Shown here in pieces: positions 1-32,508 of a stretch of 64,000 nt of DNA. Within the stretch, counting starts at the first letter, position 1. Every line of letters starts with the position of its first letter. The notes under the pieces were generated by a model. The model was not told the origin of the DNA, made no database searches, and saw only the letters and a program-made list of their open reading frames with translations. The position numbers and the translations under genes are program-made. Source of the stretch: an uncultured Prevotellaceae bacterium (GTDB lineage Bacteria; Bacteroidota; Bacteroidia; Bacteroidales; Bacteroidaceae); contig ONGG01000012.1 of NCBI GenBank assembly GCA_900317305.1, positions 1 through 64,000 on the forward strand, given 5' to 3'.

Positions 1-492
1 ACCGCTGGCGTTGACCACCGTCAGACCGGCAATCTTGCCTTTCACGAGTTCTGCGGCGTCGCCGATCTTACCGGCGTTGAAGTCCTCGGCCTTCACGGAT
101 GCCACGGCAGAGGTGATGTCGCCCTTGCGCTGGGTGCCGTAACCGATGACCACCACTTCGTTGAGCAATGCGTTGTCTTCCTCGAGCGTCACATTGTTGC
201 CGGCCTTTACCTCCTGCGAGAGGAAACCGATGTAGCTCACCACGAGGGTGGCATTGCGGTTGGAAACATTGAGCGAGTAGTTACCGTCGATATCGGTAAC
301 CGTAGCGTTCTGGGTGCCTTTCTCGACTACCGTGGCTCCGATAATCGGTTCGCCTTTGGCGTCAGTGACAACACCCTTCACTACAACACCTTGCTGAGTG
401 ATCTCGGCAACAGTTGGTGATGTGCTTTCTGCGGCCAGGGCGGTCATCCCACCCGAAACCAGCAGCAGCAAACATAGAAAATGTTTTTTCAT
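1..492 (-). CDS. SusC-type TonB-dependent transporter, N-terminal part (cut by window edge)
   Basis: The first 164 codons of a SusC-type outer-membrane transporter; the rest lies off the left edge. The ATG at 492 opens a signal peptide (about residues 1-21). A carboxypeptidase-regulatory-like beta-sandwich follows (about 35-110, with TDAKGEPIIGATV and TDIDGNYSL), then the TonB box NEVVVIGYG (111-119) and the start of the plug (GKIAGLTVVNASG). SusC proteins import oligosaccharides together with a SusD lipoprotein, expected just outside the window. The start is 43 bases behind the stop of the GH127 gene on the same strand, and that gap has no promoter-like box, so I infer cotranscription from the divergent promoter near 3030. 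Family is certain; substrate is inferred from neighbours. Confidence 0.95.
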   Translation of the reverse strand, partial: MKKHFLCLLLLVSGGMTALAAESTSPTVAEITQQGVVVKGVVTDAKGEPIIGATVVEKGTQNATVTDIDGNYSLNVSNRNATLVVSYIGFLSQEVKAGNNVTLEEDNALLNEVVVIGYGTQRKGDITSAVASVKAEDFNAGKIGDAAELVKGKIAGLTVVNASG

Positions 493-535: not shown

Positions 536-2959
536 TTATTTGTTTACTTTCCATTCGAGCACGCCGCCCGACTCTCCCTGGCGCAACTTGGCCAGGATTT
601 TCAGCCCCGTGGTTCGCACAGGAGCAAAGTCAACGCTGTTGTAGCAATCTTTGCTCACCGTGTAGGGACTGTGGTCGGCCACTTCCTGCCACTCGCCACT
701 GGCGTCCTTGTAGTAGAGCGTCCACGACTCGGGCGTGCGGAAGTTGCCGTCGTAGTGGTCGAAGTCAAGCCAATACACCTGCACGTTCGATACCTCATAC
801 TCCTGGTCGAACTGGTAGGTGATGGCCTCGGTGGTGCCACGCTTCAGCCACCAGTAGTGATAAGGCTTCGAGGTGTCCGACGAGCGCTTGGGCTCCCACT
901 GGTCGTTGGTGCCGCCGGCCCAGGAGTCTACGGGAGCGGTCTCAGGGGCGTCGTTCTGGATGGGACCACGGTTGCAGAACGTCTGTGCCTTCGAGGCGAT
1001 GGTGGGCAGCGGGGTGGCCACGGCCATCGATGGTGTGTTGGCAATCCACACTTCCATCTGCTCGTTGCCACGGTTGTTCCAAGTAGAGTAGGGGATGGCA
1101 CGGAAACGCACATCCTTTACCTCACCGTCGCGCTGCAGCTCCTTCGCATTGCCCTCGAGCACCACCACGCCGTTGAGCAGGCCGGCCTCGTAGTGGGCGC
1201 TGATGGGGGCACTGTCGAGGATATACTTGTTGAACACCTTGTGGTCGGATTGGTCGGTGCCCTCCAGACAGTAGACGATGGGACCGCGCTCAAGGGCCAC
1301 CTTGCCACGGTCGTCCTCGGCATTGTCGTTGGCCACGATGCGGCGAACGTCCATCGGGAAGTCGAGCTCTATCACGTCGCCTTTCTTCCAGGAGCGCGAG
1401 ATGCAGACATAACCATCTTCATTCGCCAAGCCTGCTGCCACACCGTTCACTGTGACGGTGTAGGCAGAGGCGGCTTCGCTATAAGTATAGAGAGAGTTGT
1501 TTGTTGGGGAATCCTTCAGCCAGGAGGGGATGCGGAGGCGGATGGCAAACTTGCCGCCGCCCTTCGTCACCTTGATTTGGATTTTACCATTCCAAGGATA
1601 GTCGGTGGTCTGTTCCAACTCGACGTTGCCAATCCTGGCTTTTCCCTGAGCATAGAGGTTCACGAAGATATCCTTTCCCTGCTGGGCATAGATGTATCCG
1701 GGGATGGAGGCCACGAAGCGGGTGATGTTGCCGGGGCAGCAGGCACAGCCAAACCATTTCTGGCGCTCGTGCTCACCGTCGCTCTCCAGCGGATTGTCGT
1801 AGAAGAATTTGTCGCCACTGAGCGAGACGCCGCTCATCACATTATTATATAACGCGCGCTCGCATACGTCGATGTATTTGCTCTCACCAGTGGCAAGAAA
1901 CATGCGGTAGTTCCAGTACACATTGGCGATGGCGGCGCAGGTCTCGCAGTAGGCAGTGTGGTTGTTCAGCTCATAATTGGGGCCAAAACCCTCGCCCTGC
2001 GGACGGCTGCCTATGCCACCGGTGATGAAGAGTTTCTTCGACGACATGTTCTCCCAGATGCGCTCCAGGGCATCGAAGTAGGCCTTGTCGCCAGTAAGGG
2101 CGGCCACGTCGGCCACACCCGAGTAGAGATATCCGGCACGCACGGCATGGCCCACAATCTCCTGTTGCTGGAGGATGGGCATGTGGTCTTGCGAGTATTC
2201 GCTGGGCTGATGGCCGTCGGTGCAACGGCCTGTCTCCTCTACGAAGTATTTGGCGCCCTCCAGGTATTTCCTGTTGCCTGTTACCTTATAGAGTTTGCAG
2301 AGTGCCATCTCGATGATGGGGTGTCCGCCCGGACGGTGGATCTGTCCTTCGTTGGGGCCAAAGGTTTTGCACACCAGGTCGGCGTTCTTGATGGCCACAT
2401 TGAGGAAATTCTTCTTTCCCGTGGCACGGTAATGGGCCACGGCGCTCTCGATGAGGTGACCTGAGTTGTAGAGCTCGTGCGAGTTGATCTTCTCCCACTT
2501 GTGCGTGCCCCACCAACCACTAAGGCGCGTACATTTGTTAGTGACGCAAGTGGTGAGGTAGCCATCGGCCTCCTGGGCCTTCGCGATAATGGCAATCACG
2601 GAGTCGAGGTAGTGGTCGAGGCGGGCATCGTAGTGCACGGCAAGCGAGTAACTGGCGCCCTCGATTACCTTGTATGGATCGGTGTCGTCGAAGGAGAAGT
2701 CGCCTTTGTGCTCACCTTGGATGAGGCCGGCGGCAAGCGCGAAATTGTCGAAACGGCCGTTCACCTCGCACTCATGGAAGGCAGAGGGGATGCTTACCGT
2801 GCGGTTGGTCTCGATGCGGGGCGACCAGAAACCGTCGCTGAGGTGGACACTGGTGAAGGGAACCTCTTGGATGGGATTCGAAAGACGTGATGGGCGTGAT
2901 GCATTGGCTGTGATGGCCAGCATCATGGCTCCGAAGAGTAATAATACTTTTTTTTCCAT
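536..2959 (-). CDS. GH127 beta-L-arabinofuranosidase, secreted
   Basis: An 807-residue glycoside hydrolase of family GH127 (old DUF1680), which removes beta-linked L-arabinofuranose. A signal peptide covers residues 1-20 (MEKKVLLLFGAMMLAITANA). The helical barrel spans roughly 30-450 and includes the zinc and nucleophile residues expected from Bifidobacterium HypBA1: Glu339 and Cys341 in CETC, and Cys407-Cys408 in WFGCACCPGN, with Cys407 the likely nucleophile. Beta-sandwich domains follow, and residues about 690-807 look like a discoidin-type carbohydrate-binding domain. It is first in a leftward operon with SusC. A second GH127 of exactly the same length lies at 5235-7658 but is clearly divergent in sequence, so the two are probably specialised for different linkages. 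Confidence 0.93.
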   Translation of the reverse strand: MEKKVLLLFGAMMLAITANASRPSRLSNPIQEVPFTSVHLSDGFWSPRIETNRTVSIPSAFHECEVNGRFDNFALAAGLIQGEHKGDFSFDDTDPYKVIEGASYSLAVHYDARLDHYLDSVIAIIAKAQEADGYLTTCVTNKCTRLSGWWGTHKWEKINSHELYNSGHLIESAVAHYRATGKKNFLNVAIKNADLVCKTFGPNEGQIHRPGGHPIIEMALCKLYKVTGNRKYLEGAKYFVEETGRCTDGHQPSEYSQDHMPILQQQEIVGHAVRAGYLYSGVADVAALTGDKAYFDALERIWENMSSKKLFITGGIGSRPQGEGFGPNYELNNHTAYCETCAAIANVYWNYRMFLATGESKYIDVCERALYNNVMSGVSLSGDKFFYDNPLESDGEHERQKWFGCACCPGNITRFVASIPGYIYAQQGKDIFVNLYAQGKARIGNVELEQTTDYPWNGKIQIKVTKGGGKFAIRLRIPSWLKDSPTNNSLYTYSEAASAYTVTVNGVAAGLANEDGYVCISRSWKKGDVIELDFPMDVRRIVANDNAEDDRGKVALERGPIVYCLEGTDQSDHKVFNKYILDSAPISAHYEAGLLNGVVVLEGNAKELQRDGEVKDVRFRAIPYSTWNNRGNEQMEVWIANTPSMAVATPLPTIASKAQTFCNRGPIQNDAPETAPVDSWAGGTNDQWEPKRSSDTSKPYHYWWLKRGTTEAITYQFDQEYEVSNVQVYWLDFDHYDGNFRTPESWTLYYKDASGEWQEVADHSPYTVSKDCYNSVDFAPVRTTGLKILAKLRQGESGGVLEWKVNK

Positions 2960-3024: not shown

Positions 3025-3032
3025 CAAAATAA
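3025..3032 (-). promoter_or_regulatory. probable -7 box of the GH127-SusC operon
   Basis: On the minus strand this reads TTATTTTG, one mismatch from TAnnTTTG. Support comes from geometry: 28 bases separate it from the nearest TTGGACGAT copy, exactly as for the opposite promoter at 3171. Confidence 0.5.
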
Positions 3033-3060
3033 TGAAAAAAGGCGCAGACGGAGTGCCAAT

Positions 3061-3142
3061 ATCGTCCAAGATGATACAACTATCGTCCAAGCACCTGGAA
3101 ATAATGCATTTTTGGATGATTTTGCTATGGAGTTTGGACGAT
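3061..3142. promoter_or_regulatory. symmetrical cluster of four TTGGAYGAT operator-like motifs
   Basis: Two copies read on the minus strand as TTGGACGAT (3082-3090 and 3061-3069, 21 bases apart). Two read on the plus strand (3112-3120 TTGGATGAT and 3134-3142 TTGGACGAT, 22 bases apart). Each pair is a tandem direct repeat pointing toward its own promoter. The proximal copy ends 28 bases from the -7 box on both sides. Tandem repeats two helical turns apart next to a promoter suit an AraC-type DNA-binding domain, such as that of a hybrid two-component regulator. The regulator itself is not in the window. Confidence 0.7.
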
Positions 3143-3170
3143 TGTTTCATCCGTTTTGGGCGAAAGTAGT

Positions 3171-3178
3171 TATCTTTG
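3171..3178 (+). promoter_or_regulatory. -7 box of the GH97-GH127 operon
   Basis: TATCTTTG matches TAnnTTTG exactly and lies 26 bases before the GH97 ATG. No good TTTG lies 19-21 bases upstream, which fits a promoter needing an activator bound at the adjacent operator repeats. Confidence 0.7.
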
Positions 3179-3204: not shown

Positions 3205-5223
3205 ATGAAAGCCAAACTACTGCTGACACTACCTACCTTACTCTTTTTTCTTGCCCATTCCGTCATGGCCAAGGACTATACGGTGGCATCACCCAACGGC
3301 AGGATCTCAGCCTCGGTAGATGATAACCGGACGCTTACCGTGACCTTCGACGGGAAGGAGGTGGTGAGTGTGGAAACCGATATGGCCATCATAAAGAGGT
3401 ACAACCAAAGGAGCGATGCCACAGCCAACTCTTCTTTCTCTCTTGGTCGTGGCTACCGGTATGCAGGTACCCGTCATGTCGACGACCACATTGTGGCGCC
3501 ATTCTATCGGCAAGCTTCATTCCAGATGTCGGGCAATCAGATGGACTTGCGTCTGGCTGATGGCTTCGGCATGCAGATAAGGGCCTACGACGAGGGGGTG
3601 GCTTACCGGTTCTATACGACTAACAAGAAAATGACTGTCGTGGCCGACGAGACGGCTGACTTCCGTTTCCCCGACGATAGCAAGGCCTGGCTGGCATACT
3701 CTACCAACGACGAGAAACCCTTCGCCATGGCTTTCCAGAACTTCTACGACGCGACCATGCTTGCCGAGGCCAAGGACAAATATGCGTTCCTTCCTGCCAC
3801 AGTGCAGAGTGGCAACGTGAAGGTGACCTTGCTCGAGTCCGACCTGCGGAGTTATCCTGGCATGTTCGTCAAGGCTGGGGGCAACCACCTGAAGGCCGCT
3901 TTCGCCCGATACCCGAAGACCATGGCCTACTACAAATGGCGGGGTATGAGTTATGTGGAGGAAACCGAGAGTTTCATCGCCAAGTCGGAAGGTGCGAGGA
4001 CCTATCCCTGGCGGGTGATGGCCATCACCGACGACGATACGCAGATGCCCGTGAACAACTTGGTATATGGGCTCGCCACCCCCAACCAGATAGGAAGCAC
4101 CGACTGGATAAAACCTGGAAAGGTGGCATGGGATTGGTGGAACGACTGGAACCTGAAAGGAGTTGACTTCGAGGCTGGCATCAATACCCGTACCTATCAG
4201 TATTACATCGACTTTGCCTCCAAGAACCACATTCCGTATGTGGTGCTCGATGAGGGATGGTACGACTCCTCGAAAGGCGACATCATGAACCCCATTGCCG
4301 ACATCGACCTGCAACGACTCATCGACTATGGACGCCAGAAAGGGGTGGATATCGTGCTCTGGACGGTGTTCAATGTGCTCGACGAGCATCTCGACGAGGC
4401 CTGCCGCACTTATGCGGGAATGGGCATCAAGGGATGGAAAGTGGACTTCATGGACCGCAACGACCAGACGGCAGTCGAGATGGCCGAACGACTGGCGAGA
4501 ACCTGTGCCTCCTATCATCTGCTGCTCGACTATCATGGCTTCTATGCGCCCACTGGAATGAGCCGAACCTATCCCAACATCCTCAACTATGAGGGGGTGT
4601 TTGGCATGGAGGAGGCCCGATGGGCGAAGAAAGACACGGATATGCCTGAATACGACGTCACTTTTCCCTTCATACGCATGATGGCCGGAAACGTTGACTT
4701 CACGCCGGGTGCCATGCGCAACGGCACGAAGGAGAACTGGGTGGAATGCTATCAGAACCCGGTGTCAATGGGCACACGATGCCACCAGTTGGCTTGCTAT
4801 GTGGTGCACGACTCTCCTTTCACGATGCTCTGCGACGCACCCACCAACTATGAGCGCGAACAGGATTGCGTGGACCTCATCACCAGCATTCCCGACACTT
4901 TCGACGAGACTAGAATCACACATGGTAAATTAGGTAAATACATCACTGTTGCCCGCCGGGCCGGTAGCGATTGGTACTTGGGTGGGCAAACGAACTGGTA
5001 CGGAAGGGAAGTCACGCTCTCTCTTGACTTCCTTTCCCCAGGCACGTATGAGGCTACGATTGCCACCGACGGCATCAATGCCAACCACAATGCCGAAGAC
5101 TACCTGATTGTCCGTAAACAACTGACTGCCAACGACCAACTCACACTGAAGATGGCCAGCGGTGGTGGCTTCCTCGTGAAACTGGTGAAAAAAGAGGTTC
5201 TATTGACTTCAAAAGCAAAATAA
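3205..5223 (+). CDS. GH97 glycosidase of the retaining (alpha-galactosidase / beta-L-arabinopyranosidase) type
   Basis: A 672-residue periplasmic enzyme of family GH97. The ATG at 3205 opens a clear signal peptide (MKAKLLLTLPTLLFFLAHSVMA); an upstream in-frame ATG at 2974 would translate the promoter and operators and is rejected. Order: N-terminal beta-sandwich, catalytic (beta/alpha)8 barrel from about 290, C-terminal beta domain. In GWKVDFMDR the Asp at 414 matches the nucleophile of the retaining GH97 branch; inverting SusB-type alpha-glucosidases have Gly there. Glu469 or Glu470 in GMEEARW is the likely acid/base. Retaining members act on alpha-galactosides or beta-L-arabinopyranosides. 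With GH127 genes on both sides, arabinopyranose or galactose caps on an arabinose-rich glycan are the likely targets. The next gene starts 11 bases later. Confidence 0.9.
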   Translation: MKAKLLLTLPTLLFFLAHSVMAKDYTVASPNGRISASVDDNRTLTVTFDGKEVVSVETDMAIIKRYNQRSDATANSSFSLGRGYRYAGTRHVDDHIVAPFYRQASFQMSGNQMDLRLADGFGMQIRAYDEGVAYRFYTTNKKMTVVADETADFRFPDDSKAWLAYSTNDEKPFAMAFQNFYDATMLAEAKDKYAFLPATVQSGNVKVTLLESDLRSYPGMFVKAGGNHLKAAFARYPKTMAYYKWRGMSYVEETESFIAKSEGARTYPWRVMAITDDDTQMPVNNLVYGLATPNQIGSTDWIKPGKVAWDWWNDWNLKGVDFEAGINTRTYQYYIDFASKNHIPYVVLDEGWYDSSKGDIMNPIADIDLQRLIDYGRQKGVDIVLWTVFNVLDEHLDEACRTYAGMGIKGWKVDFMDRNDQTAVEMAERLARTCASYHLLLDYHGFYAPTGMSRTYPNILNYEGVFGMEEARWAKKDTDMPEYDVTFPFIRMMAGNVDFTPGAMRNGTKENWVECYQNPVSMGTRCHQLACYVVHDSPFTMLCDAPTNYEREQDCVDLITSIPDTFDETRITHGKLGKYITVARRAGSDWYLGGQTNWYGREVTLSLDFLSPGTYEATIATDGINANHNAEDYLIVRKQLTANDQLTLKMASGGGFLVKLVKKEVLLTSKAK

Positions 5224-5234
5224 CGATTATAACG

Positions 5235-7658
5235 ATGAAAAGACTCCTTACTATCGTGCTGACGGCTATGGTCGTACTGACCGCCACAGCAGCCAAGAAA
5301 CCACAGCAGGTGCATGGCTATCCCATCAATCCCGTGCCCTTCACTGCAGTGAAAGTGAACCAGGCTTCGTTCTGGGGACAACGGCTGGAGGCCAGCCGGA
5401 AGGTGACGATTCCTCTCGCTTTCTCGAAGTGTGAGGAAACCGGGCGTTACACCAACTTCACCAATGCCGCTGCCCATCTGAAAGATCCGTCGAAGACATT
5501 CACCGTGGGCGGACTCTCATTCGACGACACCGACCCCTACAAGACCATCGAGGGTGCCAGCTATATCCTGCAGACTTATCCCGACAAACGGCTCGTGCAG
5601 TATATCGACTCGGTGCTCGACCTCATAGCAGCGGCACAGGAACCCGACGGATATCTCTACACCTCGCGTACGCAGAACCCGCAGAACCCGCACGAGTGGG
5701 CTGGCGACAAGCGATGGAGCAAGGAGGAGGACCTGAGCCACGAACTCTACAACCTCGGCCATATGGTGGAGGCAGCCATCGCCCACTACCAGGCCACGGG
5801 CAGCCGGAAGTTCCTCGACATCGCACAGCGCTATGCCGACTGCGTGTGCCGTGAGGTGGGACCCAATCCAGGACAGGCCTGCGTGGTGCCCGGACATCAG
5901 ATAGCAGAGATGGCACTGGCCAAACTCTATCTCGTGACGGGCGAGAAGAAGTATCTCGACGAAGCCAAGTTCTTCCTCGACTACCGGGGAAAGACCACCA
6001 TCGTGCATGAGTACTCGCAGGCCCACAAACCGGTGGTCGACCAAGACGAGGCCGTGGGACACGCCGTGCGTGCGGCATATATGTATGCCGGCATGGCCGA
6101 CGTGGCGGCACTCACTGGCGACAAAGACTATATCAAGGCCATCGATGCCATCTGGGACAACATCGTCACGAAGAAACTCTACATCACCGGTGGCATAGGG
6201 GCCACTTCCAATGGCGAGGCCTTTGGCGCCAACTACGAGCTGCCCAACATGAGCGCCTATTGTGAGACTTGTGCTGCCATTGGCAATGTCTATGTCAACT
6301 ACCGCCTTTTCCTGCTCCATGGCGATTCGAAATACTACGACGTGCTGGAACGCACGCTTTACAATGGCCTCATCAGCGGCGTGAGCCTCGAGGGCAATGG
6401 TTTCTTCTATCCCAATCCGCTGGAGTCGATGGGACAGCACCAACGACAGGCATGGTTTGGCTGCGCTTGCTGTCCGAGCAACATCTGCCGTTTCATTCCC
6501 TCGCTGCCGGGATATGTGTATGCCGTGAAAGACCGCAATGTCTACGTCAACCTCTTCCTCTCCAATACGGGTGAACTCACTGTAGGGGGCAAGAAGGTGA
6601 GGCTGAGCCAGACCACAGAGTATCCATGGGATGGCGACATCGTGGTGACGGTCGACCAGAATGGGACTGGACTCTTCGATATGAAAATTCGGATTCCGGG
6701 ATGGGTGCGCAACCAGGTGGTGCCCTCCAATCTTTACCAATATAGTGATGGCAAGCGGCTGGGATACCAGGTGCTGGTCAACGGACAGGCTGCTGAGGGA
6801 CAACTGACGGCGGATGGCTACTATACCATCAGCCGCAAGTGGAAGAAAGGCGACAAGGTGCAGGTACACTTCGACATGGAGGCACGCACCGTCAGGGCTA
6901 ACAACAAGGTGGAGGCCGACCGTGGCATGGTGAGCATCGAGCGTGGACCTCTGGTCTATTGCGCCGAGCACCCCGACAACAACTTCGACATCATGGGGGC
7001 ACTCATCAACCAGAACCCGAAATTTGTCCTGGGCAAGGGCGAGATATCGGGAACACCCGTCACCACCCTTACCACCAGCGCGCAGACGCTGAACTTCAAC
7101 GATGCCGGAAGACTGGAGGCACAGGACCAGACATTGAAACTGATTCCTTACTATGCCTGGTGCCACCGCGGCTCAGGGAAAATGCGTGTGTGGCTGCCGC
7201 AAGACCTCAATGCCACCAGTCCGTCGCAACCCGCCACCCTTGCCAGTGAGAGCAAAGTGACCTCGTCGTCAAAAGTGCCGGCACTCTCGTCTATCAACGA
7301 CCGCTTGGTGCCGAAAGACGAGAACGACCGCTCTGTGCCCTATACGCATTGGTGGCCCAAGCAGGCTGGCACAGAATGGCTCTGCTATGAGTTCCCGCAG
7401 GAGTCCACCGTCCAGAGTGCCACCGTCTATTGGTTCGACGATGGACCCTGGGGTGGATGTAGGGTGCCGAAGTCATGGCGTATCCTCTACCAGGACGGGC
7501 AGCAGTGGGTGCCTGTGGAGGGTGCCGATGGTTATCCTACCGACAAGGGGGCTCCTTGCACCGTCAACTTCAATCCTGTCAAGACCAAGGCGCTCCGTCT
7601 GGAGGTGGTGTTGCCCGATGACAATTCGGCAGGACTCTTCGAATGGGTGGTGAGATAA
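5235..7658 (+). CDS. GH127 beta-L-arabinofuranosidase, second copy
   Basis: An 807-residue GH127 enzyme cotranscribed with GH97 (11-base gap). A signal peptide covers residues 1-19 or so (MKRLLTIVLTAMVVLTATA). The catalytic set is present: Glu344 and Cys346 in CETC, Cys412-Cys413 in WFGCACCPSN, with 66 residues between the two Cys clusters, as in the copy at 536-2959. The C-terminal part (about 695-807) again looks like a discoidin-type binding domain (WWPKQAGTEWLCYEF, then VQSATVYWFDDG). Expected product is L-arabinose released from beta-linked arabinofuranosides. Its stop lies 24 bases from that of the convergent TonB receptor gene, with no obvious hairpin between. Confidence 0.93.
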   Translation: MKRLLTIVLTAMVVLTATAAKKPQQVHGYPINPVPFTAVKVNQASFWGQRLEASRKVTIPLAFSKCEETGRYTNFTNAAAHLKDPSKTFTVGGLSFDDTDPYKTIEGASYILQTYPDKRLVQYIDSVLDLIAAAQEPDGYLYTSRTQNPQNPHEWAGDKRWSKEEDLSHELYNLGHMVEAAIAHYQATGSRKFLDIAQRYADCVCREVGPNPGQACVVPGHQIAEMALAKLYLVTGEKKYLDEAKFFLDYRGKTTIVHEYSQAHKPVVDQDEAVGHAVRAAYMYAGMADVAALTGDKDYIKAIDAIWDNIVTKKLYITGGIGATSNGEAFGANYELPNMSAYCETCAAIGNVYVNYRLFLLHGDSKYYDVLERTLYNGLISGVSLEGNGFFYPNPLESMGQHQRQAWFGCACCPSNICRFIPSLPGYVYAVKDRNVYVNLFLSNTGELTVGGKKVRLSQTTEYPWDGDIVVTVDQNGTGLFDMKIRIPGWVRNQVVPSNLYQYSDGKRLGYQVLVNGQAAEGQLTADGYYTISRKWKKGDKVQVHFDMEARTVRANNKVEADRGMVSIERGPLVYCAEHPDNNFDIMGALINQNPKFVLGKGEISGTPVTTLTTSAQTLNFNDAGRLEAQDQTLKLIPYYAWCHRGSGKMRVWLPQDLNATSPSQPATLASESKVTSSSKVPALSSINDRLVPKDENDRSVPYTHWWPKQAGTEWLCYEFPQESTVQSATVYWFDDGPWGGCRVPKSWRILYQDGQQWVPVEGADGYPTDKGAPCTVNFNPVKTKALRLEVVLPDDNSAGLFEWVVR

Positions 7659-7682
7659 CTCTATAGGCCTGCCTTCTTCCCA

Positions 7683-10034
7683 CTATCTGATGATGAGTGG
7701 GAACATCACTTTCAATGAGAAATTCCGGCCCATGTTATAGATGCCGTGGTGGCCCGTCACAGGGTTCACCGCGGCATATTTTAGTCGGCTCAGGTGACTC
7801 TGGTAGGCGCGGTTGGTCAGGTTGTCGCCATTCAGGCTCAGCGAGCACAGGTTGCGGTGACGCCACTTGATGTCGGTGCCCACCGACATATTGAGTAGGG
7901 TATACGAGGGAGTGACGGTCTCGGTGTCGTCGGCCACATAGGCATGGTCTTGCCGCAGGTTGCACTCCAGACCAATTTTCACATAGGTGTTGTTGAGCAC
8001 CCTGCCGTCGCGCACCAGGTCGTAGCTCAGTTCCGATACCCATCGGGTGGCCGGTGTCCGCGGTAGGTAGCGGCGGTCGGCAGGCTGATTCCGCTGGCGG
8101 GCATCCACCATCGACAGGCTGTTCTCGAAGTGCAACCGCTCCACAGGATGGATGTCGAGGGTCAGTTCGCCTCCCAGCAACCGGGCATCGCCCTGCGTGA
8201 ACAGGTAGGTGGGCAAGCCGTCGGTCTCCACTCCTGCCTGTCGGCTGGCGAAGATATAATTGTCGATGAAGTTGGCAAACAGGGCCACCTGTGCCGAGAC
8301 GATGGGCGAGGTGTAGTCCCACCCCAGGTCGGCCTGCCAACTGTATTCGGGCCGTAGATTGGCATTGCCCACCTCATAGCGGAAGGTGCCCTCATGCTCG
8401 CCGTTCGAACCCAGTTCGCTCAGGTTGGGTGCGCGGAATCCACGGGCCAGGTTCAGCCGCAGGTGCATGTTGCTGCCCAGTTCTCTCACAACACCCACAC
8501 TGCCCGATATCGCACGGAAGGTGCGCGAGATGCGGCCGAAGCGGTCTTCAAGGGCGAAGGCGTGTACATGCCGCAGGTCGGTGCGCACACCACCGCTGAT
8601 GTTCCAGCTGTTTGCCTTGTAGCCGGCTGTCACATAACCTCCGATGTCGTTGAGCATATAGTCGGGAATGAGGAATTCCTCGCCCTTGTTCACCGACCGC
8701 TGATACATTCCTCCTATGCCGGCATTGAGCTTCAGCCCGTCGGTGTTCTGCAGTGCGTAGTGCACGTCGTAACTCAGGGTGTGAAGCAGGAAGTCGAGAC
8801 CGCTCTCGTCGGGGGTCTCCAGTTCCTCATACTCTTGTCTGCGGTTGCTCTGGTAGCCCACCTGCAGTTTCAGCGTTCCCTTTCCCACATAAACGGAGTT
8901 GTCGAACATGGCTTTGTAGTGGCGCACATGTTGATAAGGGAATCCGTGTCCATAGGTCTTCAGGTCGTGGCGGGTGGCCACGGCCTCACTCTCCTCGCCG
9001 TCTACGAGTACGGGTTTCACAAACTGGCCTGTCGCCTCGTCGCGCTCACCCTCGGTCATGGTGGGGATGAGGTGGTAGTAGCTCATCTGCAGGTGGCTGT
9101 AGCCCCACTGGCGGTTCAAGCCCACCATGCCGCTCAGTGCCCGCTCGGCAAACTGTGTGCCTAGCACATAGCCGTCGTATTTGTTCTTGTAGGCATGGGC
9201 GGCCTTCTGGCTGAACCGGGCATCCCACACAAAGCCTTTCTGGTTGCCGCCCATGTTCAGCGAGTAAGCCCACAACCCATTGTTGGTCTGGTATTCGGCC
9301 GATGCCGACCCTCTGATTTGTCCATTGGGCAATGACGGGCGACTATGGAAAATCACCACGCCAGCCATGGCATCGGAGCCATAGGTGAGCGATGCCGGAC
9401 CTTTCAGTATCTCTATGCTGTTCACGTTCTGCGCGTCGAGTTCTATGCCATGCTCGTCGCCCCACTGCTGGCCCTCTTGTCTGATACCGTCCACCACGGT
9501 CACGATGCGGTTGTAGCCCAATCCGCGTATCACAGGTTTCGAGATGCCGCTGCCAGTGGTCACCTGTGCCATGCCCGGACGGCGGGCAATGGCGTCGATG
9601 ATGTTGGTCGACGAGGTGTTGAGCAGGTCGCGCTGACTGACGATGGCCACGGGAGTGGGTGAGTCTTTCAGCAACTGGTTGCCGGCGATGCCCGTCACCA
9701 CCACTTCGTTGATCATGGCGTTGCTCTCGCGCATCACAAAGTCAAGTTGGTGCGTGCGGTTCAGGTCCACCTCCCTGATGATGGTCTGGTGCCCCACATA
9801 ACTCACCTGTATGGTCATCGTCTTCTGTGGCAGGTTCTCGAAGAGGTATTGCCCGTTGATATCGGTCACGGTGGTCTGTTTCAGTTCGGCTATATATAGG
9901 GTGACGCCTATTAGCGGCTCGTTGTCCACGGCATCAGTCACCTTGCCGCTGAGGGTGGTCTGATGATGGTTGTTCTCTGCCGTGGCACTCATGGGGATGA
10001 GGGCCATCAGCAGCATGATGAATATGGTAGTCAT
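7683..10034 (-). CDS. TonB-dependent outer-membrane receptor, probably for a metal or metal chelate
   Basis: A 783-residue receptor, shorter than SusC proteins and of the siderophore/vitamin/metal class. Signal peptide about 1-19; carboxypeptidase-regulatory-like domain about 26-110 (SGKVTDAVDNEPLIGVTL); TonB box NEVVVTGI; plug about 125-235 (RPGMAQVTTGSGISKPVIRG, GPASLTYGSDAMAGVV); then a 22-strand-type barrel. There is no SusD partner. The gene upstream on the same strand encodes a His/Cys-rich membrane protein. In other Bacteroidetes such small proteins accompany ZnuD-like receptors, so zinc or copper uptake is the best guess. The ligand cannot be read from the sequence. Confidence 0.85.
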   Translation of the reverse strand: MTTIFIMLLMALIPMSATAENNHHQTTLSGKVTDAVDNEPLIGVTLYIAELKQTTVTDINGQYLFENLPQKTMTIQVSYVGHQTIIREVDLNRTHQLDFVMRESNAMINEVVVTGIAGNQLLKDSPTPVAIVSQRDLLNTSSTNIIDAIARRPGMAQVTTGSGISKPVIRGLGYNRIVTVVDGIRQEGQQWGDEHGIELDAQNVNSIEILKGPASLTYGSDAMAGVVIFHSRPSLPNGQIRGSASAEYQTNNGLWAYSLNMGGNQKGFVWDARFSQKAAHAYKNKYDGYVLGTQFAERALSGMVGLNRQWGYSHLQMSYYHLIPTMTEGERDEATGQFVKPVLVDGEESEAVATRHDLKTYGHGFPYQHVRHYKAMFDNSVYVGKGTLKLQVGYQSNRRQEYEELETPDESGLDFLLHTLSYDVHYALQNTDGLKLNAGIGGMYQRSVNKGEEFLIPDYMLNDIGGYVTAGYKANSWNISGGVRTDLRHVHAFALEDRFGRISRTFRAISGSVGVVRELGSNMHLRLNLARGFRAPNLSELGSNGEHEGTFRYEVGNANLRPEYSWQADLGWDYTSPIVSAQVALFANFIDNYIFASRQAGVETDGLPTYLFTQGDARLLGGELTLDIHPVERLHFENSLSMVDARQRNQPADRRYLPRTPATRWVSELSYDLVRDGRVLNNTYVKIGLECNLRQDHAYVADDTETVTPSYTLLNMSVGTDIKWRHRNLCSLSLNGDNLTNRAYQSHLSRLKYAAVNPVTGHHGIYNMGRNFSLKVMFPLIIR

Positions 10035-16210: not shown

Positions 16211-19200
16211 TCAGAAAACAAACTTACAAGAGGCCGATTTGCCGTTCTTTCCGATGGCGCGGGCCACATAGCAGCCTTTGGCCAACTGGCGGACAGCCAC
16301 CTCGCCATAGCCTCCGCTCATCGGTGCCCTGAGACTCTCAACCAACTGTCCTGAAAGGGTGTAGATATTGATGCCCAGGTCCTCGTCGCCTTCTCCCCTC
16401 ACAACCAGATGATTGGCGGCAAAGCGCAAGGTGAGGGGCTCGTGGTTGTCGGCCAGGGTCGTGGCAATGCCATTGGGGTCGTTCATGAACAGACTGGTAT
16501 AGGTGTTCAGGAAGTTGGACTTCTTGATGGTGGGAATGGTGAGGAGGTAGATGTCTCCGGCACCGTCGGGATAGCGGCCCACGGTGGAGTTGCCGTCATG
16601 GGCGGGGTAGGGCATGCTGTCGGTCCAGCTCATGTCGGCGGCAGAGAGGGTCACAGTGCCTCCGTCGTTGCTCAACTTGAAGTTGGCGTGCAGTTCGTAC
16701 GTGGGCTCTTGCTTGTCGCACCACACCAGCAGGTATCCATGGGCGGGGATGATGGTGCTGGCCGTTCCGTCGCCCTTGGTGATGCGGTATTTCTGGGGGT
16801 TGTCGTTGTCGCTCAGGTACATACCCTCCACGTCGATGGCCTGGTCGGTGGTGTTGTAGAGCTCCACCCAATCGGCTCTCTTGAAGTAGTCGTTGGCAAA
16901 GACGCTGTTGGCGGCGCTCACCTCGTTCACCCTTATGGGGGTGATGCCATGGGCCAGACGGTCGGCGTCGCTCATCGGTTCGAAGCAGGCCACCAGATTG
17001 AAGGAGCCTTGCGGAATATTCACCTCGGGCGAGGTAGAGTAGTATTCGGTCACGGTGCCTGGCGAGGAGATTGCAAGCTCTGCGTCCCAATAGATGTCGG
17101 TAGAGGTGGCGCTGTTGTTGTGCACCTCTACGGCAATGATGTTCTCACCGGCTTGGAAGAGGCTGGCATTGAGCGTCATCTCGCCACTGTCGGGGTTGTT
17201 GGGTGCATAAGAACTTGCCCAGGTGTTGTAGGTCACGTTGCCGCCGGGCATGTTGTAGCGGCCGGCCTCCTTGCCGTTCACATAGATGACGAAGCCATCG
17301 TCTACAGTGAATCCGAGGGTGAAGGTGGTATTGCTTTGGGGAGCCTCGTCAAGAGTCACTTTCTTGCGGAAATAGTAAGTGGGGTATTTGTTGTTGGCAT
17401 TGGAACCGTAGCTGATGGTGGTTTTGAGCCCATCCTTTCCATATCCCAGGGGAGCGCTGCCCGCTTTCCACGACGAGGTGTTGTAGTTGGCGGCTTTCCA
17501 GTTGGTGTTGTCGAGCGAGCCCTTGTCGTAGTAATTCCATGAGGCGCCTTTGTTGAAGAGATATGAGCGCATGGCCGAGCTGTTGGCCCATCCGGTGAAG
17601 GTCTGTCCGGCAGGAGCCACGGCCTTGAGTTTGACAGGTGCGAAGAGGTTGCCGTCGAAATATCCCGTGGGGATGCGGGTGTCGTTGATGTAGAGTTGTG
17701 CACCAGAGGTGGTGCTGCTGATGATGGCCCGTTGCGGTGTGACCGAGGTGAGCCTCATCGGTGCGTAGTTGCGGATGGTATTGGTCATCGTCGACATGCG
17801 TGTGTTGAAATTGCCTTTCAGTTCATTGGCCATGTTCCAAGGGGTGCCGCCTTCCAGTTGCTGCAGGGGATAGGCGCGGGTGGCGAGCGAGTCGATGATC
17901 TCGGCACAGCGCTTGGCCTCGAACACGCTGCCGCCCATCACGCAGTAGGTGTCGGTGAACTGCCGTCTGAACTCGGCGTTTTTGATCAGGTTCATGAAAA
18001 TGGTCACGAATTGTATCTCGGCCCTGATGCTGGTCTGCTTGTCGTAGAGCCAGTTGAAGGTATAGTTGCGCTTGTTGGCGAAATCGATGAAACTGTTCGA
18101 GGTGTTGAAGGCGAAGTCGAGGTCGAACGACACGAAGCGGAACCGCCCTCCCTCGTGCAGGGTATAGCCCTTGATGTTGTTCTGGGGCCAGTCAGTACCA
18201 CCCAGGTAGAGTTGCATGGCCATGTAGTTGATATACTCGTCGATGTCGAGCAGTTCCTTGATCTCGGCGTAGACATCGTCGCTGGCGGCCTGCTTGCTCA
18301 GCTCATAGAGTTGGTTGAAACTATCCTTGGTACCGCATTTCTGCACGTAGGCGGAGTCGGGGTCCATCTCGAAGAGGTCGATTTCCTCATCATCCCATCC
18401 AAAGTTGGCGTAGACAAAGTGCTTGTTGTTGGGCTCGCGCATGTTGAGCATGCCGATATACTTGCCGTTGATGAACTCATGCACGGGCAGGTACGACTGG
18501 GCGTCGATGTCAACACCCGAAGTGAGGATGATGCTCTCGATGGCGGGGTCCTTGAATCGGTTCCAGTTGTCGTTGCCGCCATTGCGTATCTGCAGGGTGC
18601 GGTTGCGCAGGTAGGGCTTTTCGGCGAAGAAGGGATAGTCGAGATGCTTGTTTCCTCCCAGTTCCTTGTCACCTTTTAGTTTGAAGGAGTGGGGCTCCCA
18701 CGCACGGCTCCATCCACCGCACATCTCCAGATTGACGTCCTGGTTGAACACGCCATTGCCATCGGGCAGTATGTAGGCGAAGTTCATCGGGCGTTCCCAA
18801 TCCATGTTCCAGTTGCACTTGGTGTCTTGTCCGCGTCCGGGCTTGCCGTTGCTGCCTCTCACCATCACGCCATGCATGTTGCCGTAGAGGAAGTCGGGGT
18901 CGCCTACTACCGACACCACATGTCCGGTGTAGTTCTTGTCGCGGCGGATAAAAGAACGGGTGACGGCCCGGCTTGGCAAACGGCCATCGGCGAAGAGCCT
19001 GAAACGGTAGCAGGTGGTGCCAGTGACATTGAACTGTCCGGTGGTGCTGCGGTAGCCATTGGTGTTGGTGGGCAGCGTGCCGTCGAGGGTGTATCGCAGG
19101 GTGCAGCCCTCGGGGATGGTGACCGTCACATAGACCGAGCCACTGAAGAGTTGGTCGTTGTGCGACACCACGGGCTCGTCGAGTTGCTGGTCGGCATAGA

Positions 19201-19705
19201 TGGCTCCGTTGTTGCTCGTGCCATGGGTGGGCTGTGCGGTGAACGACCACTCGTCGCCTCCGTCGGTGATACGGGCGTACGATGTGCGGTCGATGGCTTC
19301 AGGATAGCTCTGACTGGCGATGAGCGTGCCGTCGGGCGCGCTGATATAGAGGGTGCCTCCGTCGATGTCGAGTTTGAAGGGTGCGTTGGTGTTCTTCAGG
19401 TTGTTGTTGTCGAACCACACCACTTTATAGCCTCTGGCGGGGATGGTGCCTATGCCAGCGGGTGCCTTCCATTTGGTCAGGTTGGCGGCATCGTCGCTGA
19501 AGAAACATCCGGTGAGGGTCACCTCAGTGTCGCTGGGGTTGTAGAGTTCCACCCATCCGTCGAAGTTGACGGTGGGACTGAAGAACTGGTCGACATTGGC
19601 CGACATGATCTCGTTGATGACGAGCGAGCTCGATGTGGGATTCACCGCTGCCGTTGCAGGCAGACAGCCGATGACGAGTGCGGCGAGGATGGTTTTGAAA
19701 GTCAT
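16211..19705 (-). CDS. large CotH-kinase-like surface protein with two lamin-tail domains
   Basis: A 1164-residue exported protein (signal peptide about 1-19). Order: lamin-tail domain (about 25-165, INEIMSANVDQFF, FDGWVELYNPSD); chitobiase-type C-terminal-like module (about 175-255, CTLRYTLDGTLPT); CotH-like domain (about 260-640) with LPVHEFINGKYIGMLNMREP and the acidic FVSFDLDFAF; a galactose-binding-like module (about 740-880, DDGFVIYVNGKEAGRYN); a second lamin-tail domain (about 925-1050, WVELYNTTDQAIDVEG); and a C-terminal sorting-like tail (YTLSGQLVESLR). CotH kinases phosphorylate spore-coat proteins in Bacillus; in Bacteroidetes the role is unknown. It is followed on the same strand by no close gene; the GH51 gene lies 38 bases upstream, suggesting cotranscription. 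Confidence 0.82.
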   Translation of the reverse strand: MTFKTILAALVIGCLPATAAVNPTSSSLVINEIMSANVDQFFSPTVNFDGWVELYNPSDTEVTLTGCFFSDDAANLTKWKAPAGIGTIPARGYKVVWFDNNNLKNTNAPFKLDIDGGTLYISAPDGTLIASQSYPEAIDRTSYARITDGGDEWSFTAQPTHGTSNNGAIYADQQLDEPVVSHNDQLFSGSVYVTVTIPEGCTLRYTLDGTLPTNTNGYRSTTGQFNVTGTTCYRFRLFADGRLPSRAVTRSFIRRDKNYTGHVVSVVGDPDFLYGNMHGVMVRGSNGKPGRGQDTKCNWNMDWERPMNFAYILPDGNGVFNQDVNLEMCGGWSRAWEPHSFKLKGDKELGGNKHLDYPFFAEKPYLRNRTLQIRNGGNDNWNRFKDPAIESIILTSGVDIDAQSYLPVHEFINGKYIGMLNMREPNNKHFVYANFGWDDEEIDLFEMDPDSAYVQKCGTKDSFNQLYELSKQAASDDVYAEIKELLDIDEYINYMAMQLYLGGTDWPQNNIKGYTLHEGGRFRFVSFDLDFAFNTSNSFIDFANKRNYTFNWLYDKQTSIRAEIQFVTIFMNLIKNAEFRRQFTDTYCVMGGSVFEAKRCAEIIDSLATRAYPLQQLEGGTPWNMANELKGNFNTRMSTMTNTIRNYAPMRLTSVTPQRAIISSTTSGAQLYINDTRIPTGYFDGNLFAPVKLKAVAPAGQTFTGWANSSAMRSYLFNKGASWNYYDKGSLDNTNWKAANYNTSSWKAGSAPLGYGKDGLKTTISYGSNANNKYPTYYFRKKVTLDEAPQSNTTFTLGFTVDDGFVIYVNGKEAGRYNMPGGNVTYNTWASSYAPNNPDSGEMTLNASLFQAGENIIAVEVHNNSATSTDIYWDAELAISSPGTVTEYYSTSPEVNIPQGSFNLVACFEPMSDADRLAHGITPIRVNEVSAANSVFANDYFKRADWVELYNTTDQAIDVEGMYLSDNDNPQKYRITKGDGTASTIIPAHGYLLVWCDKQEPTYELHANFKLSNDGGTVTLSAADMSWTDSMPYPAHDGNSTVGRYPDGAGDIYLLTIPTIKKSNFLNTYTSLFMNDPNGIATTLADNHEPLTLRFAANHLVVRGEGDEDLGINIYTLSGQLVESLRAPMSGGYGEVAVRQLAKGCYVARAIGKNGKSASCKFVF

Positions 19706-19743: not shown

Positions 19744-22296
19744 TTACCATTCGAAAACGCGGAAAGAGTAGGGGGGCATCACGATGTTGCCCTTTTGTGC
19801 GCTGCCTTTCTGGCACAGCACTTTCTGGTCTTCTGGCTTGCCATTGAACCCTTCATAACTGAGGTCGTCGGGCAGATTGATGCCTGTGATGCCGATGGTG
19901 AGGGTCACGGGCAGGGCATTGACGAGCCTCAGGTAGTGGCGGCCCGTGCGGCTGTCTTCCACCACGCTGGCCGAGATGCGGCGGCTGATGCCACCGTCGG
20001 CCTCGATGCGCGAGCCGATGTAGTAGTCACCGGCATGAACGGAGAAGAGCCGTTGGGTCTCATAGGCGGGGGTGGGGCGCACCTCGGTGTTGCTGAAGTA
20101 GATCATGTCGGGGTCCCAGTTGTGGTGACCATCCTTCGCCAGCAGAGGGGCGTACGATGTCATCTCCACCACATCGCCGTTGCGCTCTACGTTGCACAGG
20201 TGGATGGCCTCGGCCAGGGCGGTCTCCACATTGGGGCGTTTCACCGACGTGCTGGCGGCCCATTCACCCAGATATACCTTTGGGGCGTTGCGGTCGTAGT
20301 CGTCGTAGTAGTCCTGGTGGTTGATGAACCATCCGGAACTCTCATAGTAGTGCTCGTCTACCAAGTCGATGATGTCCTGGTGCTTCTTGGCGTAGTCCCA
20401 TCCCTCGATGTAGTCGGCCGAGGGGGTGTGGAAGGGGCCTGCTGTGCCACAGACGATGATATTGGGGTATTTCTCCTTGATGGCCTTGCAAATCATCTCG
20501 TAGCGCTCCTCGAAAACAGTGGAGATGATGTCCTCGTTGCCGATGCCCACGTATTTCAGGTTGAAGGGTGCGGGATGACCGGCTTCGGCACGGATTTTCG
20601 CCCATTGACTGGTGGCGGGGTCGCCGTTGGCCCATTCTATCATGTTGAGGATTTCCTGACAGTAGGCGGGCATCTCTTCCATGGGGATGCCGCCCTGCTG
20701 ACCGCCATAGCCGTCGGCATTGGCAGCGGAGTTCTGGCAGGGCACGCCGGCTGCCAGCACGGGCAGTGGCTCGGCCCCGATGTCCTCACAGAACTGGAAG
20801 TACTCGTGGAAGCCCAGGCCGCGGGTCTGGTGGTAGTGCCAGATATTGAAGTCGGGCTTGCGGTCTTGCAGCGGACCTACGGTGTGGTGCCAGTGGTAGA
20901 TGTTGTCGAGGCCTTGGCCGTGACTCATGCACCCGCCTGGGAAGCGCACAAACTTCGGCTTGAGGTCGGCGATGGCCTGGGCGAGGTCTACACGCAGACC
21001 GTTCTTGCGGTTCTTGAAGGTGACCTGGGGGAATAGACTTATCATGTCGACGGCAGCCTTGCCTTTCTTCAGCGACACGATGCGCAGCCTGATGTCGCGG
21101 TTGGCGGGATGCTCATGAAATTTCCCGTCATCGGTGGTGAGCATGGCCTCGTATTGATTCCATCCCTCACCCTGCGACACGATTTTCTTTTCGGCAAGCA
21201 CCTCGCCATTGGTGGTCACAAGTTGCACGCGCCATTGTTTCTTCTTGCAGTCGATGTTGCGCACCCAGAACGAGAAGTCATAGGAGCAGCCGCTCTCTCG
21301 GTCGGCAATGCCGTCCCATCCTTCGTTGACGAGGGTGTCGGTCTCCATTACGGCATAATGGGGGTTATTGGCACTCAGGGGATTGCTGGTCTCTATCTGT
21401 ATCTGACGGTTGGAGTGCCAGGCTGTCGTGGCGTTCCATTCCTTGCGGTCGAGTGGCGAATATTCGAAGTCGCGGTTCTGTATCAGTTCGGCATACAGAC
21501 CGCCGTCGGCGGCGTAGCTGATGTCCTCGAAGAACACGCCGATGAGTTTGTCGCTGATGCGCTTGCGCTCGCTGGGGACTACCGTGAGGGTGGCCTTGGC
21601 CTCTGTGAGGCCACCGAAGTGGGCATTGTCGTCGGTCATGCGCTCGGCGCTCATTTCGGCATCAAGGCGCATCATCTCATGGTGGGTGAGCAACTGGATG
21701 AGCTCGCCTTGGGTGATGTCGAAGATCTTGCCATCGTAGCGTTTCCCGTCAACGGTGGCGGTGTCGCCACCCCAGGCCACGTCGCTGATGCTGCTCTCCT
21801 GGGGCTGTCCGAAGTGGCGGAAGTCGTTGGAGGCTTGCAGGTAATATTTTGAGTCGCCCGAGATGTAGAAAATGTCGAAGGTCTGGTCGTCGCCTTCAAA
21901 CATGATGGGTTTCAGACAGTTGGGCGTAGAGACGCGGGGGTAGTCTTGTGGCCGCCATACGATGAGGTCTTTGCTGTAGGCAGCGGCGAAGCAGGGCGAT
22001 TTGTCGTTCACTTGCCAGATGGCTCGCCAAGTGCCATCGGTGGCACGGAGCACACAGGGGGCGTACATCCGCTTCTCTGCGCCCCACTGTCCGTAGTCAG
22101 AAGCACAGAGCTGTCCTATCTCTATCCATCGTTGTTCGATGTCGAGGTAAGCGGCGTGCAGACCGGCTCGCTCGTTGGGTGAATAAATGAAAATCTCGCG
22201 CGAGATGTTGTCGCCTTCTTCTTGGGCGAGTGTCTCGAGAGGGGCGGCCACCATGGCCAAGGTCATCGCGAAGATGTAAAGGATGCCTTTTCTCAT
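19744..22296 (-). CDS. GH51 alpha-L-arabinofuranosidase with extra N-terminal propeller-like segment
   Basis: An 850-residue exported enzyme (signal peptide about 1-24). Residues about 215-850 are a GH51 arabinofuranosidase: IGVFFEDISYAADGGLYAE, FVRFPGGCMSHG, acid/base Glu588 in GIGNEDI, nucleophile Glu678 in YLGEWAAS, and a C-terminal beta-sandwich. Residues about 30-210 are extra: short strands with WRAIWQVNDKSPCFAAAYS and KDLIVWRPQDYPRV resemble blades of a GH43/GH32-type propeller, too short for a full one. The enzyme should release alpha-linked L-arabinofuranose, complementing the beta-specific GH127 enzymes. A minus-strand TAATTTTG at 22430-22437 is a possible -7 box with a long leader. 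Confidence 0.88.
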   Translation of the reverse strand: MRKGILYIFAMTLAMVAAPLETLAQEEGDNISREIFIYSPNERAGLHAAYLDIEQRWIEIGQLCASDYGQWGAEKRMYAPCVLRATDGTWRAIWQVNDKSPCFAAAYSKDLIVWRPQDYPRVSTPNCLKPIMFEGDDQTFDIFYISGDSKYYLQASNDFRHFGQPQESSISDVAWGGDTATVDGKRYDGKIFDITQGELIQLLTHHEMMRLDAEMSAERMTDDNAHFGGLTEAKATLTVVPSERKRISDKLIGVFFEDISYAADGGLYAELIQNRDFEYSPLDRKEWNATTAWHSNRQIQIETSNPLSANNPHYAVMETDTLVNEGWDGIADRESGCSYDFSFWVRNIDCKKKQWRVQLVTTNGEVLAEKKIVSQGEGWNQYEAMLTTDDGKFHEHPANRDIRLRIVSLKKGKAAVDMISLFPQVTFKNRKNGLRVDLAQAIADLKPKFVRFPGGCMSHGQGLDNIYHWHHTVGPLQDRKPDFNIWHYHQTRGLGFHEYFQFCEDIGAEPLPVLAAGVPCQNSAANADGYGGQQGGIPMEEMPAYCQEILNMIEWANGDPATSQWAKIRAEAGHPAPFNLKYVGIGNEDIISTVFEERYEMICKAIKEKYPNIIVCGTAGPFHTPSADYIEGWDYAKKHQDIIDLVDEHYYESSGWFINHQDYYDDYDRNAPKVYLGEWAASTSVKRPNVETALAEAIHLCNVERNGDVVEMTSYAPLLAKDGHHNWDPDMIYFSNTEVRPTPAYETQRLFSVHAGDYYIGSRIEADGGISRRISASVVEDSRTGRHYLRLVNALPVTLTIGITGINLPDDLSYEGFNGKPEDQKVLCQKGSAQKGNIVMPPYSFRVFEW

Positions 22297-32200: not shown

Positions 32201-32508
32201 AGGTGTATGTGCTCAATGAGAAGGGCAGTTCATTTGTAAAGAAAGAAGGTGCGACACTGAACGGATGTAGTGCCTATTTCACCATCAATAATCCTACTAT
32301 TGAGACTCCTGCTTATCTCAATATCGGCTTCTTTGACACCACTGGCATTTGCATGCCTCACGTAACAGCCGACGACGGCCAGATGGTTGATGTTTATGCT
32401 ATTGACGGCGTGAAGGTAGCCACCGTAAGTGTGAATGGCGGCAAGGTCGACCTGAACCGACTGCCAAAGGGAATCTATATTGTAGAAGGAAAGAAAATAG
32501 TGAGATAA
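29266..32508 (+). CDS. C10 family cysteine peptidase (interpain/streptopain type)
   Basis: A 1080-residue secreted protease precursor. Signal peptide about 1-21; Spi-type propeptide about 22-140 (QALQKARAFLQTRGI, CYYVFNNGNDAGFVIVAGDD); catalytic domain about 145-385 with nucleophile Cys177 in GCVATALAQVMYYH, His322 in GHEFILDGYD and VNWGWGG. About 700 residues of beta-sandwich modules follow, ending in a YAIDGVKV...GIYIVEGKK tail. Relatives are SpeB of Streptococcus and interpain A of Prevotella intermedia, which cut host proteins. The start ATG ATG fits the promoter at 29185. A 59-residue peptide gene follows 2 bases after the stop. Catalytic residues are intact, so it should be active. Confidence 0.92.
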   Translation: MMRKLFLSLLLTMLCVVGMVANPVTQGQALQKARAFLQTRGITATANMSMVYQGRQASHQHGAPAKDPCYYVFNNGNDAGFVIVAGDDCAEDVLGYAESGSFDADNIPENMQAFLQGYAEEIAMARTQGLNNTGSEENVEVARKVVAPLIQTHWNQQDPYNQLCFKPDGTTKCVTGCVATALAQVMYYHKWPKDATTSIPQYDFNDGAIVYASLPATTFDWGKMKPVYINTGEDDEEAETAVAQLLLYCGHAVKMNYGTSSSEASAANIPQALKDYFGYPGNPSYILRSQYTAEEWDEQIYSELKYGRPVLYGSQTSGGSGHEFILDGYDGHGLYHVNWGWGGLSDGYFRLQAMNPSAQSTGGSNGYGGYSLDHDAVIGVSSTEITSGESSSEEPAEENSFLTTVSLTASGDNPFSYSSSYGFHNPSVTYYFTLSGTQNVLDVGVGLYQDGILLQERVLYPAQTMTLGSVYNVSGSLFYGLGTDLADGVYQVKGINRVPETDEWYVNKGSDQIYVELTISNGQVTYTNVSKTPEEPLERALEVTSIEQRFDTANGQIRAYVKNTGETDYYGSLHLFLNDVRLAEEGVHVGVGKEDYVDFFFSLISGEVKVEIATDYNAANVIYTDEAFTLVETSPALPALTKVGDVELKNISGSQMYGALLDGNVTLKNETGGDFNGNLTLKVDVFSKRENGYIYFTPYSQKIPVSMLVNETKTIPVACSLMTIGDEFKYTLTDPAGNVLGNSSWITIVPGVVYWKGTGERYAVAPTDEITVSEDVAAVSFEDIDNFTGVTITPNSNDNTIYYFAPNTTTPTSLIGKNVVKGYNSDKIALSKKDGFYIPQSFTASKISFSYVPTLGADGKNGWQTITLPFAVQKVTSGGNEVDWYHGNDTSEEKDFWLREFKQVAGNVVQFADVAEWIPNVPYLIAVPGDRWGAEYDMTNKLLEFSASNVRVEPTTVSAAVSDNYEFVGVTGNTTIDSEVYVLNEKGSSFVKKEGATLNGCSAYFTINNPTIETPAYLNIGFFDTTGICMPHVTADDGQMVDVYAIDGVKVATVSVNGGKVDLNRLPKGIYIVEGKKIVR

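Follow-up and report, generated by a model that had tools for sequence, protein, structure and literature searches.

A four-site operator array between divergent glycosidase operons of an uncultured Prevotellaceae bacterium, with a membrane HTCS as its likely regulator

Two divergent, activator-dependent promoters appear to share a single intergenic operator array in the window (the whole stretch of DNA analysed, 64,000 nt, at the end of contig C61), and this array is most likely bound by a membrane hybrid two-component regulator (HTCS) encoded on another contig of the same assembly, C27. The probability of this reading is put at roughly 0.84. A motif scan found exactly four matches to TTGGAYGAT in the window, arranged as first annotated in two tandem pairs, with a period of 21 on the minus strand and 22 on the plus strand. 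The array and the genes on either side of it are as follows.

1..492, minus strand: SusC homologue, first 163 residues, truncated by the contig end (similarity to the SusC of locus L013)
536..2959, minus strand: GH127 beta-L-arabinofuranosidase-like protein, first gene of the minus operon (Pfam)
3025..3032, minus strand: -7 box of the minus promoter, TTATTTTG, 28 bp downstream of the proximal minus copy
3061..3069, minus strand: proximal operator copy of the minus pair, TTGGACGAT
3082..3090, minus strand: distal operator copy of the minus pair, TTGGACGAT, 21 bp from its partner
3091..3111, no strand: the 21 bp separating the two back-to-back pairs, poorly conserved in sequence and near-constant in length
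3112..3120, plus strand: distal operator copy of the plus pair, TTGGATGAT
3134..3142, plus strand: proximal operator copy of the plus pair, TTGGACGAT, 22 bp from its partner
3171..3178, plus strand: -7 box of the plus promoter, TATCTTTG, 28 bp downstream of the proximal plus copy
3208..5223, plus strand: GH97, first gene of the plus operon (Pfam)
5235..7658, plus strand: GH127, second gene of the plus operon (Pfam)

The equal geometry claimed in the initial annotation was recovered, with the proximal copy exactly 28 bp before the -7 box on both strands (3032-3025 and 3171-3178). The -7 consensus of the Bacteroidota primary sigma factor is TAnnTTTG (PMC7366714). Both sites carry the -7 box of a Bacteroidota housekeeping promoter, TATCTTTG on the plus strand as an exact match and TTATTTTG on the minus strand with one mismatch; the proposed plus box therefore stands, and the minus box departs from the consensus at one base. 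As four or more TTGGAYGAT matches arose in 1 of 100 shuffles of the window, their number by itself is no more than mildly unusual. The improbable feature is the geometry of the copies, not the number of 9-mers. An extended consensus, TTTGGAYGATT, had also been put forward and needs a small correction: it matches the plus copies only, and the 9-mer of the relatives is nearer TTRGACKAT. Many arrays, in relatives as at window 3091-3111, tend towards a run rich in A (AAAATA-like) at the centre between the pairs, which could be a bend or another site.

Like HTCS-controlled promoters, the array is located upstream of SusC/SusD or glycosidase operons. The label 'arabinose PUL' is plausible from the presence of GH127, GH43 and GH97, which suggest an arabinose-containing plant glycan, not necessarily arabinan, as the substrate. 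Elsewhere in the window, an alpha-L-arabinofuranosidase gene (19744-22296) adjoins a gene for a CotH kinase domain protein with lamin tail domains (16211-19705), and 29266-32508 encodes a large protein that combines a C10 peptidase domain with a Spi inhibitor domain at its N-terminus.

Within the own genome (G000, a 3.68-Mb assembly), pairs of TGGAYGA with 12-18 bases between them occur four times, two of these being the window pairs; since the backward control gave eight matches, such pairs alone are not rare. An exact pattern with a single fixed spacer had zero matches in this genome, because a step of 21 misfits the plus pair and a tenth letter T misfits the minus pair. The full composite of tandem pair and -7 box, allowing up to three mismatches, gave one own-genome match with a period of 22 and one with a period of 21; these are the two window promoters, and the backward control gave no match there. 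Across 60 genomes, composites with at most two mismatches were found in seven (G000, G009, G020, G022, G024, G054 and G058), the backward controls being given only as totals up to three mismatches. Matches at exactly three mismatches, namely one of period 22 (G010) and several of period 21 (G012, G016, G017, G033, one in G009 and one in G058), were set aside because the backward controls gave 3 and 11 matches, respectively; at this level the genome-wide pattern performs no better than its control.

Conservation is far clearer at orthologous loci. The relatives compared are the best 80 by GH97 match, mostly Prevotella-like rumen and gut genomes, the closest (L012) being 94 % identical. A first scan and an alignment showed the same array at orthologous GH127/GH97 gaps, with orientation and distances unchanged. 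Twenty-four composites from 12 of these loci then served to train a weight matrix, which was applied with a cut-off of at least 22 bits to both strands of the best 80 loci and the window (1,493,645 bases) and returned 108 composites, against none in the reversed sequence. Apart from the two in the window, these composites (106) lie in 52 of the 80 loci; the training loci hold 24 of the 106, and 40 of the 68 non-training loci contain at least one. No composite reached the threshold in the remaining 28 of the best 80 GH97 loci, in two of which (L050, L070) the sequence upstream of GH97 is short or missing, the other 26 having more than 1 kb. Where GH127a and GH97 are divergent (27 loci, including all 12 used for training), both composites are present in 22, the minus composite only in two (L038, L064), and neither at threshold in three (L047, L055, L058). 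Within these 27 relatives the minus -7 box reads TTAYTTTG in 19 of 24 minus composites, and the plus box is TATCTTTG in 17 of 22 plus composites. Conservation of the motif pairs upstream of orthologous operons, on which the initial annotation had staked its interpretation, is therefore the case in most relatives, not in all.

Because the training matrix penalised other distances, a scan with free spacing was run, in which operator pairs only were searched with a period of 15-30 and a -7 box was sought afterwards up to 62 bp downstream. All 90 pairs found had a period of 20, 21 or 22, and the reversed control contained zero pairs. Outside the training loci and the window (64 pairs) periods were likewise 20-22 only, and T[AT]NNTTTG was found exactly 28 bp past the proximal 9-mer in 50, the next commonest distance being 20 (3 of the 64). 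The direct repeat of about 21 bp that characterises HTCS-controlled promoters is thus present, with periods of 21 and 22 in the window. Conservation extends downstream of the 9-mer, giving a repeated unit of approximately TTTRGACKATTTTnncAT, about 18 bp, which is close to the 16-bp sites with a 5-bp spacer of mannan HTCS motifs (PMC3878776). The proximal unit occupies the place of the -33 box. Across 102 composites, TTTG begins 20-26 bases ahead of the -7 box in 4 cases overall and 27-28 bases ahead of it in 9; the TTTG -33 box of a Bacteroidota housekeeping promoter is in general lacking. Such scarcity of TTTG at the -33 place would suit a promoter that depends on an activator.

Of seven Y_Y_Y matches in the own genome, one, at G000:C27:9940-13830, has every domain of an HTCS: Reg_prop, Y_Y_Y, HisKA, HATPase, receiver and HTH_18. 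Contig C27 starts inside SusD (residue 353) and continues on one strand with DUF4859, DUF6055-DUF4859, CotH, DUF6055-GH43 and the HTCS. As the window's contig breaks inside SusC after residue 163 and C27 starts in SusD, the two contigs are probably neighbours and the HTCS gene would belong to the minus operon. The activator had initially been suggested to be the HTCS of the locus; an AraC-type (HTH_18) HTCS is indeed linked to the sites, with its gene on C27, outside the window. Downstream of this gene are a PFL-like gene, approximately 70-100 bp on and on the same strand, and one ORF without a domain scan. Further same-strand ORFs follow the HTCS in the own genome, G020 and G024. The gene ahead of the HTCS on C27 (5920-9885) fuses DUF6055 and GH43, with F5/8C and laminin-G domains, in one 1321-codon open frame.

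The gene order from array to HTCS crosses the inferred contig junction in the own genome and is unbroken in G024 and G020. On a single contig of G024, the minus strand leads away from the array through GH127a, SusC, SusD, DUF4859, orf2 (DUF6055-like), DUF6055 and the HTCS, and GH97-GH127b lie on the opposite side of the array. The array of G020 is identical to that of L013; its minus run is similar to that of G024, with a further composite (L151, position 8997) ahead of the HTCS-bearing part and a GH92-like gene after the HTCS, and its plus side reads GH97-GH43-GH127b. In L025, an orthologue 83 % identical to the C27 HTCS is encoded next to the array and is preceded by a third composite, again with a gap of 28 bp. 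Thus an HTCS gene is part of the same PUL, the full domain set being shown for the own-genome and L025 proteins. Two minus-facing composites stand in series ahead of the GH43-HTCS gene run of L025 (9640-9890); L025 lacks the GH127a-SusC-SusD block that such sites enclose in G020 (L151), and one operator is apparently an orphan.

Site and regulator also co-occur between genomes. HTCS candidates were scored across 60 genomes (10 per genome in most), and among these candidates relatives above 700 bits were found in eight genomes, the seven that carry composites and G023. The co-occurrence of motif and regulator expected of an HTCS-controlled promoter is therefore seen, with all seven composite genomes within the eight best of 60 (P = 2e-8, with cut-offs chosen afterwards). 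The DNA-binding domains of eight site-linked HTCSs (G020, G009, G024, G058, L025, L054, L063 and L065) are 62-76 % identical to that of the C27 HTCS, and those of the four own-genome paralogues compared are 32-39 % identical. The corresponding value for G054, whose site is a weak variant, is 56 %. The comparison omitted the HTCSs of G022 and L037, which are cut by contig ends, and the HTCS-like match on G000:C13. The sites of G058 and G054 are weak, at about 20 bits; in G009 they are either some 19-30 kb away from the HTCS or not on its contig, and G022 likewise has its sites and its HTCS on separate contigs. The G023 relative (L161, G023:C1:40000-56000, at 4548-8147) ends after the receiver, and neither a DNA-binding domain nor operator sites were found in this 16-kb stretch; the missing domain would fit the absence of sites there.

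Six other own-genome Y_Y_Y loci (L093-L098) were checked for similar geometry. One clear 21-bp repeat was seen, in L094 (G000:C63:16000-26000), and nothing stood out in the other five. L094 encodes a Reg_prop/Y_Y_Y/HTH_18 protein without kinase domains (4527-7487), and TTTGTCCACC occurs twice as a 21-bp direct repeat ahead of a minus-strand -7 box, TATCTTTGC, at locus position 4413. This is possibly another operator of the same broad kind. Here the repeated word is approximately 20 bp, not 28, from the box, so the rule of 28 bp may not extend to every regulator, or may depend on how the word is framed.

From the sites, their spacing and conservation, and the HTCS linked to them, we infer the following course of regulation. 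A membrane HTCS combines sensor, kinase, receiver and AraC-type DNA-binding domain in a single chain, and in the presence of its oligosaccharide the C27 protein would bind as head-to-tail dimers, one on each tandem pair. The proximal unit, i.e. the 9-mer and approximately 9 bp beyond it, would cover the -33 place and allow contact with the sigma factor at the -7 box. This would activate a putative single transcript of GH127, SusC, SusD and further genes up to the HTCS on one side, and GH97-GH127 on the other. With its gene probably late in the minus operon, the HTCS would be made from its own operon and positive autoregulation would follow.

A stronger form of this explanation, compatible with it, is that the four sites make up one rigid unit in which back-to-back HTCS dimers touch and the two promoters are switched jointly. 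Steps between the pairs were compared in 37 arrays (the window and 36 loci) in which both composites have the 28-bp gap. The step is 22 in 27 arrays, 23 in three and 45 in two, with 11, 19, 35, 44 and 73 once each. Across the 27 arrays with a step of 22, the 21-bp spacer has a mean pairwise identity of 38 % compared with 26 % after shuffling, and in 17 arrays it holds 0.69 bits per column against approximately 1.65-1.7 in the 9-mers. Spacer length thus seems to be held while spacer sequence drifts. Additionally, in 26 arrays with GH97 directly downstream, the step is common to 53 % of locus pairs and the distance from -7 box to GH97 to 9 %, although the latter was extrapolated from protein alignments and part of its variety is therefore noise. 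Steps of 11, 44 and 45 have been counted in favour of the rigid unit, but those of 19, 35 (L073, with a weak minus site) and 73 speak against it, as do lone unpaired composites (L038, L048, L062, L063 and others). Because most arrays are probably homologous, inheritance accounts for part of the constancy of the step, in comparisons that ignore kinship, and the residual spacer identity may likewise be ancestry. Taken together, joint switching of a rigid unit is a tentative proposal, and a rather unlikely one. No claim is made for helical phasing of the steps of 11, 19, 44, 45 and 73, as independent cases are too few.

It is improbable that a different regulator binds the array, e.g. a free AraC-family protein, a SusR-like protein, a second Reg_prop protein or an arabinose repressor such as AraR, and that the HTCS is linked to the sites only as a member of the PUL. 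Binding to direct repeats of about 21 bp is a general property of AraC-type proteins. In G024 a second Reg_prop protein adjoins the HTCS on the same strand (L156, G024:C1:611500-631000, at 2-928, truncated where the stretch ends) and is a further candidate for the regulator in that genome. Furthermore, AraR and HTCS_Ara-1 jointly control one arabinan operon in B. thetaiotaomicron (PMC3878776). However, the presence of sites tracks both the HTCS and its DNA-binding domain, the boxes of SusR motifs lie 67 or 77 bp apart (PMC3878776), and in the own genome the HTCS on C27 is followed by the PFL-like enzyme and the one unscanned ORF, with no second regulator. Chance or simple-repeat similarity, for which the 9-mer count of the shuffles and the commonness of TGGAYGA pairs might be cited, is refuted by zero reversed-control composites in 1.49 Mb and by sites that are conserved in many species while their spacers have turned over.

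With the C27 HTCS as the preferred regulator, the array offers a portable rule for one HTCS subfamily: the repeated unit, a period of 20-22 bp and 28 bp to the -7 box. Such a rule could predict the regulon of this subfamily in rumen and gut Prevotella-like genomes, and could guide tests of contact between HTCS and the Bacteroidota sigma factor. The split between C61 and C27 also illustrates how the regulator of a PUL can be lost from view at an assembly break.

In Escherichia coli, the I1-I2 sites of AraC at araBAD form a direct repeat of approximately 21 bp with the proximal half-site at the sigma-contact region. AraC itself binds sugar as a free protein of the cytoplasm and also loops DNA. 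The array described here resembles I1-I2 in its repeat of approximately 21 bp and in the position of its proximal site, and differs in that the candidate regulator is a membrane phosphorelay protein acting at a Bacteroidota-type promoter. SusR-like operators are likewise tandem sites upstream of PUL operons, but their box distance of 67 or 77 bp (PMC3878776) is not that of the 21-22 bp repeats seen here, and the array is not of the SusR kind.

The closest known counterparts are the HTCS motifs of Bacteroides, described by Ravcheev et al. 2013 (PMC3878776) as direct repeats of two conserved sites with an average distance of 21 bp, upstream of SusC/SusD and glycosidase operons and proposed to be bound by a dimer on one face of the DNA. 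In the accounts available, HTCS operators are mostly predicted motifs. The passages of PMC3878776 compared here report neither promoter distances nor back-to-back pairs, and its main text does not use the word 'divergent', although the 28-bp distance and the back-to-back step may be visible in the alignments of its Additional file 2. Neither the exact 28-bp rule nor a fixed back-to-back step was found in the available text of PMC3878776, PMC11253607, PMC7366714, PMC10766802 and PMC12125979. That back-to-back HTCS dimers 21 bp apart would act as one cooperative two-way unit, and that the 28-bp distance would define a class of HTCS promoters in Bacteroidota, is a speculative combination with perhaps a small share of the probability. 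The array shares with the Bacteroides motifs the direct repeat of approximately 21 bp, the PUL operons and the AraC-type DNA-binding domain, and differs from those described in these passages of PMC3878776 in being composed of two back-to-back pairs between divergent operons, each exactly 28 bp from its -7 box. The type of switch is thus already known from the HTCS direct repeats of 2013, and what distinguishes the present array is that it is unusually clean and that its likely regulator can be named.
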